DNA from: an uncultured Pseudoruegeria sp.
GTDB lineage: Bacteria > Pseudomonadota > Alphaproteobacteria > Rhodobacterales > Rhodobacteraceae
DNA: 64,000 bases
Direction: 5' to 3'
Assembly (NCBI GenBank): GCA_947498155.1
Contig: CANMJD010000003.1
Span: forward strand, 124,001-188,000
Under the pieces are notes generated by a model, which was given only the letters and a program-made list of their open reading frames with translations, was not told the DNA's origin and ran no database searches. Below are positions 2,430 through 58,415 of this stretch, one piece after another. Position numbers and translations under genes: made by a program. The stretch's first letter is position 1; every line of letters starts with the position of its first letter.

Positions 2430-4040
2430 CTATGCACGGTCCCCAAGGCTGCGCAAAACCTTGGGGAGCTGTTCAGGCAAATCTTCCGCGATCAGGCCGG
2501 GCCCAAAAACCTTGGCAGCCTCCACATGCAGCCAGACCGCCGCCGTGGCAGCCTCAAAAGGATCAATGCCGCGCGCCAAGAGTCCGGAAATCAATCCAGC
2601 CAAAACATCACCGGATCCCGCTGTTGCCAACCAGGGCGCGCTGCGCTCGCCAGTTGCGGTATGCACGCTGCATCTGCCATCCGGCGCAGCGACCACCGTA
2701 TCCAGCCCCTTAAACACAACCACAGATCCGGCGCGGGTGGCCGCCGCGCGGGTGGCCGCCACTTTTGAAAGCGCCGGCCCGATCAGCGGCGGACGTGCCA
2801 GTTGATCAGCCAAATCCGGAAACAACCGCGCAAACTCTCCCCCGTGCGGCGTCATCACACAGGCCCTGTGCAGCAGCGCAAATAATTGCTCCGGCGTATC
2901 GCGATAGGCCGATAATGCATCGGCATCCAATACCGTAGGGCGCCCCGCCCCCAAACCGACAGGCACCACAGCACGCGCCCGCGCGATCCCCAAACCCGGC
3001 CCGATACAAAGCGCCGTTATGCGCGCATCCGCCAGAAAATACGCCAGAGCAGCCTCATCCTGCAGCGGCTTGAGCATAATCGATGTAACCTGCGCAGCGC
3101 ATTCCGCCATCGCCTCGGGCGGGGCGATAAGGGTTACAAGCCCCGCACCAATCCGCAATGCACTCCGCGCCGCCAGTCGCGCCGCCCCCGTGGCCCCAAA
3201 TCCGCCACTCATCACCACGGCATGCCCGTTTGAAAACTTATGCCCCGCGCCCCGCTTTAAAATCGGCCCATCGGCTTGATCAATCACCTGCACAAGGGCG
3301 TCATCCAGCCGGTGCTTCAGCCCGATATCAGCGACAACCACCCGTCCCGACGCCAAAGCCCCCTCGGCCAAAGCATGCCCCAGCTTGGCGGCATGAAAAC
3401 TAACGGTCAAATGGGCCGCAGGACGGTGATCCAGTGGCCCCCCTCCCAGAAAACGCCCGCTGTCGGCGCAAAAACCCGAGACGATATCAACCGCCACAAC
3501 CCAAGGGCCTGCCTCGCCTATCCCCCACTCGGCCAAGCGCTGTTGCACCGCTGCCAATCCCAGTACTGGCCGCGTCAATCCTGTGCCAAAGAGCGCATCA
3601 ACCACCAGATCAATCCCCTCACCGGTCCCGATCTGCGCCTGAAATGCGGCCTCGCTCAGCGCAAGAACCTCTCCCACATCAAGCCAGCGCCGGTAATTCT
3701 GCTGGGCATCCTTGGGTAAGGTCTCCGCCTGTCCCAGCAGAAAAACCATCACCGCCCACCCGCGCGCGCGCAACAGCCGTGCGATGACAAATCCATCACC
3801 GCCATTATTACCCGGCCCACACAGCACAACCGCCCGCCGCGCTGCTTCATTTTGATCCAAATATCCCGGGGGGACGGGGGCTGGCCCCCGCTCATGCGCC
3901 AACTGTGGCCATGTTTCAAAAACTGCATCCACAACGCCCTGCCCCGCGCGCTCCATTAATTGCAGCCCCGTCACAGCGCCACTTTCCATGGCCGTTTGCT
4001 CAATGGCGCGCATTTGAGCAGATGTCAGAAGTTCGCGCAT
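2430..4040 (-). CDS. nnr: Bifunctional NAD(P)HX epimerase / ADP-dependent NAD(P)HX dehydratase
   Basis: A 536-residue two-domain metabolite-repair enzyme. It reverses spontaneous hydration of NADH and NADPH: the N-terminal YjeF_N domain interconverts the R and S hydrates, and the C-terminal ribokinase-like domain dehydrates S-NAD(P)HX using ADP. Epimerase signature: VVLCGPGNNGGDG at residues 71-83. Dehydratase signatures: MTPHGGEFARL and [10 protein letters not shown] around 474-483. Residues 52-65 (GPAPVPPGYLDQNE) are encoded by a copy of a dispersed hairpin repeat that sits in frame between the first helix and the nucleotide-binding loop. The gene is divergent from glnB. Family assignment is very secure. 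Confidence 0.95.
   Translation of the reverse strand: MRELLTSAQMRAIEQTAMESGAVTGLQLMERAGQGVVDAVFETWPQLAHERGPAPVPPGYLDQNEAARRAVVLCGPGNNGGDGFVIARLLRARGWAVMVFLLGQAETLPKDAQQNYRRWLDVGEVLALSEAAFQAQIGTGEGIDLVVDALFGTGLTRPVLGLAAVQQRLAEWGIGEAGPWVVAVDIVSGFCADSGRFLGGGPLDHRPAAHLTVSFHAAKLGHALAEGALASGRVVVADIGLKHRLDDALVQVIDQADGPILKRGAGHKFSNGHAVVMSGGFGATGAARLAARSALRIGAGLVTLIAPPEAMAECAAQVTSIMLKPLQDEAALAYFLADARITALCIGPGLGIARARAVVPVGLGAGRPTVLDADALSAYRDTPEQLFALLHRACVMTPHGGEFARLFPDLADQLARPPLIGPALSKVAATRAAATRAGSVVVFKGLDTVVAAPDGRCSVHTATGERSAPWLATAGSGDVLAGLISGLLARGIDPFEAATAAVWLHVEAAKVFGPGLIAEDLPEQLPKVLRSLGDRA
3846..3890 (-). repeat. Dispersed GATATTT hairpin repeat, in-frame copy inside nnr
   Basis: On the minus strand a GC hairpin (GGGGGCCAGCCCCC) is followed by a C-run, GGGATATTT and then GGATCAAAATGAA. 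The 3' part ATCAAAATGAA is identical to the copy at 58070-58101, and the hairpin plus GGGATATTT matches the intergenic copy at 9437-9476. Here the element lies inside a conserved coding gene and is translated as GPAPVPPGYLDQNE. Confidence 0.7.
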
Positions 4041-4178: not shown

Positions 4179-4565
<387 letters not shown>

Positions 4566-4638
4566 TCACGGGTGTTCCTGAAACACGGGAACGACCATTC
4601 AACAATCCACTCAATCAACATAGGGAAGAGAAGGTCAC

Positions 4639-6045
4639 ATGAGCATCGCTGACGTTCTAAAAACCATCAAAGATGAAAACGTAGAATACGTGGACATCCG
4701 TTTCACCGACCCACGCGGCAAGCTGCAGCACGTGACAGTCATCAACGACGAAGTCGATGAAGACTTCCTCGAAGGCGGCTTCATGTTTGACGGCTCCTCC
4801 ATCGCAGGTTGGAAATCCATCGACGAATCCGACATGAAACTGATGCCCGACACCACTTCGGCCTACATCGACCCTTTCTATGCGGAAAAGACACTGGCGA
4901 TCCATTGTTCCGTGGTTGAGCCCGACACCGGCGAAGCCTATGCCCGTGATCCCCGCGGCACGGCCGAAAAAGCCGAAGCTTATCTGAAGTCTTCCGGCAT
5001 CGGTGATACGTCTTTCTTCGGCCCAGAAGCTGAATTCTTCCTGTTTGACGATGTACGTTTCTCTGTTGAAATGAACAAAGTTTCTTATCAGGTTGATGCG
5101 GTTGACGCGTCCTGGAACACAGACACCGAATACGAAATGGGCAACATGGGCCACCGTCCGGGCATCAAGGGCGGCTATTTCCCTGTGAACCCGATCGATG
5201 ACGCTCAGGACATCCGTTCCGAAATGCTGTCGACCATGAAGCGCATGGGCATGAAAGTGGACAAGCACCACCACGAGGTTGCCTCCTGTCAGCACGAGCT
5301 GGGTCTGGTTTTCGGTTCGCTTACCAAGCAAGCCGACGAAATCCAGAAATACAAATACGTTGTACACAACGTTGCCCACGCGTACGGCAAATCCGCAACC
5401 TTCATGCCAAAGCCGATCTCCGGCGACAACGGCACTGGTATGCACGTCAACATGTCGATCTGGAAAGACGGCAAGCCGCTGTTTGCGGGCGACAAATATG
5501 CCGACCTGTCTGACGAAGCCCTGTACTTCATCGGCGGCATCCTGAAGCACGCCAAAACGCTGAACGCCTTCACCAACCCGTCGACAAACTCCTACAAGCG
5601 TTTGATCCCCGGTTTTGAAGCCCCCGTTCTGCGCGCCTACTCTGCGTCCAACCGTTCCGGTTGTGTGCGTATTCCATTCGCAGAATCCCCCAAAGCCAAA
5701 CGCGTAGAGGCCCGCTTCCCTGATCCGGCAGCAAACCCCTACCTGTGCTTTGCCGCTCTGCTGATGGCTGGCCTTGACGGCATCAAAAACAAAATCGATC
5801 CCGGTGAAGCTTCTGACAAAGATCTGTACGATCTGCCAAAAGAAGAGCTGGAAGGTATCCCAACAGTTTGCGCATCCCTGCGTGAAGCTCTGGAAAGCCT
5901 CGAAGCTGATCACGACTTCCTGCTGGCAGGCGACGTGTTCACCAAAGACCAGATCCAAGGTTACATGGACCTGAAATGGGACGAAGTGTATGCCTATGAG
6001 CACACACCGCACCCTGTTGAATTCAAAATGTACTACAGCTGCTAA
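4639..6045 (+). CDS. glnA: Glutamine synthetase type I
   Basis: A 468-residue class I-beta glutamine synthetase, which makes glutamine from glutamate, ammonia and ATP as a cytoplasmic dodecamer. Visible signatures include [11 protein letters not shown] near the N-terminus, the ATP-binding region around [16 protein letters not shown], and NRSGCVRIP. The adenylylation loop has Tyr397 in DLYDLPKEE, so activity should be switched by GlnE under PII control. It sits 73 bases downstream of glnB, with AGGGAAGAGAAGG as ribosome site, and forms the classical alphaproteobacterial glnBA operon. A strong terminator follows. Confidence 0.98.
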
Positions 6046-9424: not shown

Positions 9425-9436
9425 GTCCTGCTTTCA

Positions 9437-9476
9437 GTTTGACCTAAATATCCCGGGGTCCGGGGCAGCGCCCCGC
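9437..9476 (-). repeat. Dispersed GATATTT hairpin repeat, intergenic copy
   Basis: On the minus strand: GCGGGGCGCTGCCCCG hairpin, a short spacer, CCCCGGGATATTT, then AGGTCAAA. This is the same element as the copy inside nnr. It lies between the convergent hydrolase-OsmC gene and the small secreted protein, where it could also act as a terminator. Confidence 0.65.
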
Positions 9477-13214: not shown

Positions 13215-13229
13215 TCCGCGTCCGGCTAC

Positions 13230-13260
13230 TTTGTTCCAAAAATATCCCCGCCGGAGGCAT
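13230..13260 (-). repeat. Dispersed GATATTT repeat, short form
   Basis: On the minus strand: GCCTCCGGCGGGGATATTTT followed by TGGAACAAA. This is the short form of the repeat (CCTCCGGCGGGGATATTT), which I recall as very frequent between genes in Rhodobacteraceae. It lies between the TPR gene and the acyltransferase. Confidence 0.65.
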
Positions 13261-13354
13261 CCCGACCTTGCCACCGGCGACCCCTTCGTTTCTTTGCCTC
13301 TTGTGCGCCTTGCCGCCGCGCCCTATTTCTGGGCCAACGACAACCGGAGACTCC

Positions 13355-27303: not shown

Positions 27304-27360
27304 TTGGGGCGCTGCCCCAAACGCTGGAATAGTGACAAAACAAAGTAGACCCACTTTGTT
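27304..27360. repeat. Two perfect hairpins downstream of serS
   Basis: TTGGGGC-GCT-GCCCCAA (27304-27320) starts nine bases after the serS stop and resembles the GC hairpin of the dispersed repeat. AACAAAGT-AGACCC-ACTTTGTT (27339-27360) follows. A short-form GATATTT repeat and a further long hairpin come next, so four structured units are packed into about 140 bases. Confidence 0.6.
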
Positions 27361-27386
27361 CTTTAAATATCCCCGCCGACAGGCGG
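27356..27386 (-). repeat. Dispersed GATATTT repeat, short form
   Basis: On the minus strand: CCGCCTGTCGGCGGGGATATTT followed after two bases by AGAACAA. It is the short form of the repeat, like the copies at 13230 and 58070, lying between serS and alr. Confidence 0.65.
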
Positions 27387-58069: not shown

Positions 58070-58101
58070 TTCATTTTGATAAAAATATCCAGCCGACAGG
58101 C
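58070..58101 (-). repeat. Dispersed GATATTT repeat, short form
   Basis: On the minus strand: GCCTGTCGGCTGGATATTTTT followed by ATCAAAATGAA. The end is identical to the copy embedded in nnr. A further small hairpin AAAGGCCCC-CTC-GGGGCCTTT lies just to its right (58103-58124), where it could terminate the gene at 58122-58415. Confidence 0.65.
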
Positions 58102-58121
58102 AAAGGCCCCCTCGGGGCCTT

Positions 58122-58415
58122 TTAGGGTGCCTCGCCCGACACAGAGCGCACCGCCCGATAGCGCCACTTGGGCAGCAACCGCAGAATAATCGCCAGAATA
58201 CCTAGGGCGATCCAGAATATTTGAATCATCGCCGCAGCAAGATTGAAATCTTCGCTTAAACTGAACAAAACACATGCCGCCGCCAGAATATTTATCCCGA
58301 AAAATCGAATGCTGCGGCTATCAAGCCATTGAAATGTAATTAGGATATAATTGCCTAGATACAGAAAAAACCCAAGGATGCCTATCAAATCACCGTATCC
58401 CACAATACGCTCCAT
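58122..58415 (-). CDS. CBU_0592-family small membrane protein
   Basis: A 97-residue protein with three membrane helices: DLIGILGFFLYLGNYILITFQWL, then IRFFGINILAAACVLFSLSEDFNLAAAMIQIFWIALGILAIILRL. The FQWLDSRS and N-L-AA pattern matches the CBU_0592 family, whose role is not known. MERIVGYGD is taken as start; five further codons upstream are open. Several GTTA-rich inverted repeats lie about 100-140 bases upstream. Confidence 0.75.
   Translation of the reverse strand: MERIVGYGDLIGILGFFLYLGNYILITFQWLDSRSIRFFGINILAAACVLFSLSEDFNLAAAMIQIFWIALGILAIILRLLPKWRYRAVRSVSGEAP

Follow-up and report, generated by a model that had tools for sequence, protein, structure and literature searches.

REPs are short GC hairpins that occur in high copy outside genes, sometimes as inverted pairs. 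Rickettsia palindromic elements (RPEs), 105-146 bp in length, are spread over many unrelated genes (PMC2229807, PMC10969869), and MITEs such as Correia and ERIC are small non-autonomous repeats that can fuse in frame to genes (PMC2229807). Among R. japonica orthologues, different RPE groups have been described near one another in one gene; an insertion hotspot and a common origin have both been weighed, and common origin was favoured for RPE-4, RPE-6 and RPE-7 (PMC3767692). For Rhodobacteraceae, titles and abstract openings, a coverage outside which subscription journals mostly lie, yielded no such element, and a paper on REP families (PMC3733652) makes no mention of Rhodobacter, Ruegeria or Roseobacter.

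The window analysed here, a stretch of 64,000 nucleotides from the 3.71-Mb genome of an uncultured Pseudoruegeria sp. (G000), carries on its minus strand, at 2430..4040, the nnr gene for a bifunctional NAD(P)HX epimerase/dehydratase of 536 aa, recognised by its open reading frame, its relative in the PDB and the Nnr set of Pfam domains (YjeF_N at residues 27-221 and Carb_kinase at 275-512). The closest solved structure is 2ax3 (TM0922), and the nearest named relatives by nnr are Roseicyclus, Pseudophaeobacter and Pseudooceanicola. The genes glnB/K and glnA adjoin nnr divergently at 4221-6045, and the glnB/K motif was present at 44 of the 46 nnr loci examined. In G004, G018, G021, G022, G024 and G028 the epimerase and dehydratase parts of the gene appear to stand in separate frames, in some cases with a stop codon close to the junction and in G024 with the two parts on different contigs. 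Two neighbouring matches to the N-terminal part in G236 (C1:1184187 and 1185166) may reflect a duplication of the epimerase part.

Comparison with other copies of the repeat and with relatives whose site is empty places the element inserted in nnr at 3843..3891 on the minus strand, with approximate ends, and its net contribution at about 48 nt (56 against 40 aa from LMERAG to GGDG inclusive). Read along the plus strand, it is made up in order of a tail, CTTCATTTTGATCC (3845..3858), of a class common in the genome; the 13-base core AAATATCCCGGGG (3859..3871), which we call variant A; and a GC hairpin, itself assigned to the minus strand at about 3874..3891, with the plus-strand sequence CGGGGG-CTGG-CCCCCG. 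Translation from the minus strand gives R51 followed by GPAPVPPGYLDQNE as residues 52-65, the latter as the sequence-only reading had proposed. As RNA, the hairpin of this copy is no stronger than shuffles of the same make-up (z -0.05), so that the evidence for the element is the recurrence of its sequence and not its folding energy, and RNA structure as a selected feature is unsupported. An Rfam search of the window returned tRNA only.

That the insert belongs to a dispersed hairpin repeat was borne out by the genome, which contains 34 exact AAATATCCCGGGG cores against none for the same core read backwards; two of the matches look like a single copy in a 77-base overlap of contig ends, which leaves about 33 copies. 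The core of a second subfamily, AAATATCCCCGCC, occurs at 52 exact places, again against none in the backward control, and with 34 and 52 exact cores the repeat is a short dispersed extragenic palindrome in high copy, as REPs are. An ordinary copy consists of a tail, AAATA followed by three variable bases, CGGGG, a hairpin that varies and may be missing, and GGGGGCAGCGCCCCC or similar, the tails in this genome being mostly TTTCA[GT]TTTGA[CT] or ACTTTGTTC. The second subfamily has the tail and AAATATCCC in common with the first and a different hairpin; the conserved part thus seems to be the tail plus core, the hairpin being exchanged between subfamilies. Within the window, four plus-strand copies lie elsewhere: one of the same subfamily as the nnr copy, between convergent genes at 9432..9475 (L017); two of the second subfamily with AAATATCCCCGCC, which the sequence-only reading had not named, at 13226..13279 (core at 13240, another hairpin) and at 27353..27386 (core at 27365, hairpin CCGCC-GACA-GGCGG); and a related one at 58070..58123. 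The copies at 9437 and 58070 had both been called the same element as that in nnr; this is correct for the first and half correct for the second, which shares the tail and AAATATCC but carries another hairpin.

By mechanical gene calling, 18 of the 34 AAATATCCCGGGG copies lie between convergent genes and none between divergent ones, the others being between tandem genes (6 and 5), spanned by a frame (4) or at a contig end (1). Inverted pairs of copies a few tens of bases apart are also seen, for example at G000:C1:710075/710114 and C5:168522/168561 and at loci L006, L011, L012, L018 and L022, some of them pairing both tail classes in a BIME-like manner. A plasmid search with the element consensus returned 24 records, all from genera that are Rhodobacteraceae-type by name except one Acuticoccus; the best places in 22 of the records had no annotated feature beneath them in a gene table that is itself incomplete, and the 2 others carried no annotation at all.

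Most relatives across the family have 40 aa from LMERAG to GGDG inclusive, while in many genera 13-33 extra residues stand at the same place in nnr, and their DNA is the element. We collected 102 distinct sequences of the site, a set enriched on purpose for inserts and restricted to loci matching the motif by which the site was excised (one search alone had 18 that did not match): 29 carry a recognisable element, 18 carry other or decayed inserts, and 55 are empty. The figure of 29 is conservative, as the criteria miss decayed elements and look for one orientation only. Fifty of the 55 empty sites are exactly 40 aa long. In a wider sample of 394 family genomes, mostly one per genus, the site was matched in 328, and in at least 41 of these the best place was 285 nt long or more, typical empty sites spanning 252 nt, a judgement by span with part of the 41 read. 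Most sampled relatives therefore appear to do without the extra residues, as the sequence-only reading had expected. The 29 recognisable elements are read in three frames, 18 in that of the window copy, 9 in a second and 1 in the third (L263), with one more shifted within the core (L133); some inserts have no hairpin any more and are still in frame.

Allowing two mismatches, the core was found in the orientation of the window copy in 33 of the 47 inserts and in none of the 55 empty sites, which were scanned in both orientations. No truly reversed element was found among the 47 inserts, the three matches in the opposite direction being overlaps inside correctly oriented elements. Stop codons do not explain this single orientation, since inspection by eye shows two open frames in the reversed window element, as in the forward one. 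A contrary case, in which distant genera had the same residues with no DNA repeat beneath them, was not seen, similar inserts showing the repeat or a decayed form of it, with the proviso that 18 of the 47 inserts fall outside our criteria for the element and some of these have no likeness left.

Several lines bear on how often the site may have been entered. On a tree of 75 Nnr proteins built without the insert columns, the pattern of inserted and empty sites takes 15 to 16 changes to explain, of which well-supported branches force no fewer than 6 to 7, against 18 to 23 when the labels are shuffled. Support for this tree is weak, with 37 of its 72 inner branches below 80; seven degenerate inserts were scored apart, as neither present nor absent. 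Counts of three core variants across 47 genomes, with the nnr copy subtracted where it is exact, showed the variant of the insert elsewhere in the same genome for 18 of 18 inserts, where label shuffling predicts 5.3 absences (p ~0.0005; 0.0012 with two sister species taken as one; 0.0067 on also dropping three inexact inserts), the test excluding G167 and G265, whose cores are outside the three counted types, L063 and inserts found later. Insert tails likewise match those of the home genome (p ~0.00004 over 10 genomes, 8 of whose pools hold 1-4 copies that were found by likeness to the insert peptide); the clear exception is G245, with only 6 of 11, the one genome that a search of its genus gave. 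The tail of the window copy, with one mismatch allowed, is found in 18 of 35 copies in its own genome, in none of 25 in genus g32 and in 1 of 29 in others. Close relatives can differ in what they carry: in genus g32, inserts of the RGPAPAPPGYL type, of variant A and in one frame, occur in three of five species, and the other two carry GGPAPQTPRSISGEMK-type inserts that are B-like and read in a different frame, one of the two decayed. In the genus of the window, the insert of G000 is of variant A and its genome has no C copies; the inserts of G001 and G002 are of variant C, and each of these genomes has 45 C copies, counting the one in nnr.

A dispersed repeat thus stands at the same site of nnr in many genera, in three frames, with a core variant that matches the home pool and a tail that mostly does. 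We read this as an orientation-specific insertion hotspot in nnr that has been used many times and is kept open by selection on Nnr, to which we give a probability of roughly 0.7; the number of independent events, the preference for the target and the selection for an open frame are what these patterns would imply. A small REP-like hairpin element that normally resides at the 3' ends of genes in Rhodobacteraceae would insert repeatedly, in one orientation, between the first long helix and the next strand of the epimerase domain, each time from among the repeats resident in that genome. Insertions that break the frame would be lost, because Nnr must still be made, and any of the three frames would serve; the insert would then be tolerated as a disordered loop and decay.

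The main competing account, that one ancestral insertion in nnr has been overwritten by gene conversion in each genome and deleted in many lineages, seems to us unlikely while still deserving attention. It would fit the single site and single orientation seen wherever the element can be recognised, and the single orientation indeed does not speak against it; it would also fit the presence of inserts, of two kinds, in all five species of g32. Full-length alignment of the inserts with the repeat pools gives it some further room: the home pool ranked first in no more than 4 of the 9 cases that could be tested, and the window insert has no clear home pool, its own genome coming third with a score of 32 behind the copies of G147 (39) and of g32 (34), which argues against a simple story of copying from home. 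Many of the foreign pools in this comparison were chosen for likeness to the insert peptide, that of g32 not among them. On the other hand, the equal length of 50 of the 55 empty sites is what would be expected had they never been entered, and an ancestral insertion would need many exact deletions to produce it. Moreover, frames and flanking residues differ between inserts, and conversion between copies of unequal length would, we infer, often break the frame.

The model of the window Nnr, built from an alignment of 42 sequences, has a mean pLDDT of 92.3, falling to a mean of 55 over residues 51-60 and 71 over residues 61-70, and the insert region is modelled as coil between a helix at 25-43 and a strand at 69-74. 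The insert is thus most likely a flexible, disordered loop, and it would be exposed at the surface; the suggestion that the element is tolerated as a loop agrees with this low-confidence coil in an otherwise confident model.

A third account holds that the element has a job at this locus, at the level of DNA or RNA, such as attenuation of nnr or an effect on glnB/K-glnA, and is kept by selection. The glnB/K motif is indeed near nnr at all 21 inserted loci examined, and the orientation is fixed, but the same neighbour is found at 23 of 25 empty loci, and the frame persists in some inserts whose hairpin is gone. Nor does the element stand nearby when nnr is empty, the 25 empty loci holding between them a single weak core match, so that we see no local compensation. 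Because loci with the same neighbours do without the element, because the hairpin can be lost while the frame is kept, and with the window copy folding no better than shuffles, we consider a local function very improbable. That the insert is a chance hydrophilic loop that only resembles the repeat, as its richness in proline and glycine and the 18 of 47 inserts that show no element by our criteria might suggest, is refuted for the window copy by its exact 13-base core with 34 genome copies against none in the control, and by the 21 insert loci scanned, all of which have a core that is exact or one mismatch away, against none, even at two mismatches, in the 55 empty sites.

The sequence-only reading had also likened the element to palindromic elements that enter coding genes in Rickettsia; as worded, this part was not supported, a general entry into coding genes not having been seen. 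In the genome of the window, chance often leaves a frame open across the element, and the 16 frames outside nnr that span AAATATCCCGGGG copies there (15 of at least 100 aa and one of 86 aa, the frame antisense to nnr not being counted) gave no match to Pfam at E 0.01. When 25 genomes were searched with a profile built on the insert peptide, the matches listed included many copies, and of 20 long-frame matches outside nnr taken from these, none was, by eye, inside a recognisable domain; the element stood upstream of a plausible start, or the frame looked non-coding. This check covered the first-subfamily AAATATCCCGGGG matches of the genome and the 20 long-frame matches from others, and within it nnr is the only gene found with the element inside a recognisable coding domain, at one site and in one orientation, many times.

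Evidence that the element is gained or lost elsewhere, as had been supposed, comes from genus g32, where alignment of the stretches around nnr shows it cleanly present or absent between species at two intergenic sites. At one, the element is present in G274 (position 93380) and 74 bases are missing in G275; at the other, in the comparison of G277 (119950) with G033, the difference lies directly after a stop codon. Both differences may be gains or losses. Several further sites in g32 that looked empty were set aside, as they proved to be decayed copies or, at G033 14447, a core standing by chance within a gene, and other differences there were less clear. No target-site duplication was found, the ends of the element being blurred both in nnr and at the intergenic sites. 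The RAYT family (Y1 transposase, PF01797) was absent from 43 of 47 genomes, including that of the window, in a search that matched 5 of 14 control genomes, and we reject a RAYT origin with PF01797 in only 4 of the 47. One genome, G254, differs from the other 46 searched in having eight Y1-transposase matches, several of them broken. It may be, and here we would not quite offer even odds, that a site- and orientation-specific element moved by a putative non-RAYT mobiliser has entered nnr tens of times from resident pools, so that nnr would act as a trap that records its activity and the current variant in each lineage. As such a trap, nnr could help to identify what moves the element, and the series of loops from fresh to decayed could reveal how an enzyme tolerates a random peptide insert.

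Set beside the known systems, the Rhodobacteraceae element resembles REPs, BIMEs and REPINs in being a short GC hairpin, in high copy, extragenic and sometimes in inverted pairs; it differs from REPs associated with RAYTs in that 43 of 47 genomes lack PF01797 and in having a copy inside a coding gene. Like MITEs such as Correia and ERIC it is a small non-autonomous repeat that can be fused in frame to a gene, and it may differ from them, neither an IS-linked terminal inverted repeat nor a target duplication having been seen. A parallel is offered by the Rickettsia palindromic elements (RPE-1 to RPE-7, with relatives in Wolbachia), in which a palindromic repeat likewise lies in frame within a housekeeping gene, at a place where exposure is expected. 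Those elements are 105-146 bp long and occur in many unrelated genes, whereas the nnr element is about 48-75 bp and has been found in one gene, at one site and in one orientation; our best reading, by analogy, is that it works as RPEs do but hits a single gene. The choice between a hotspot and one old, diverged insertion, a question that comes from Rickettsia (PMC3767692), becomes testable in nnr, where recurrence, outside the Rickettsiales, is favoured by what stands at a single codon position, namely inserts in three frames, with several core variants and with tails specific to their genomes.
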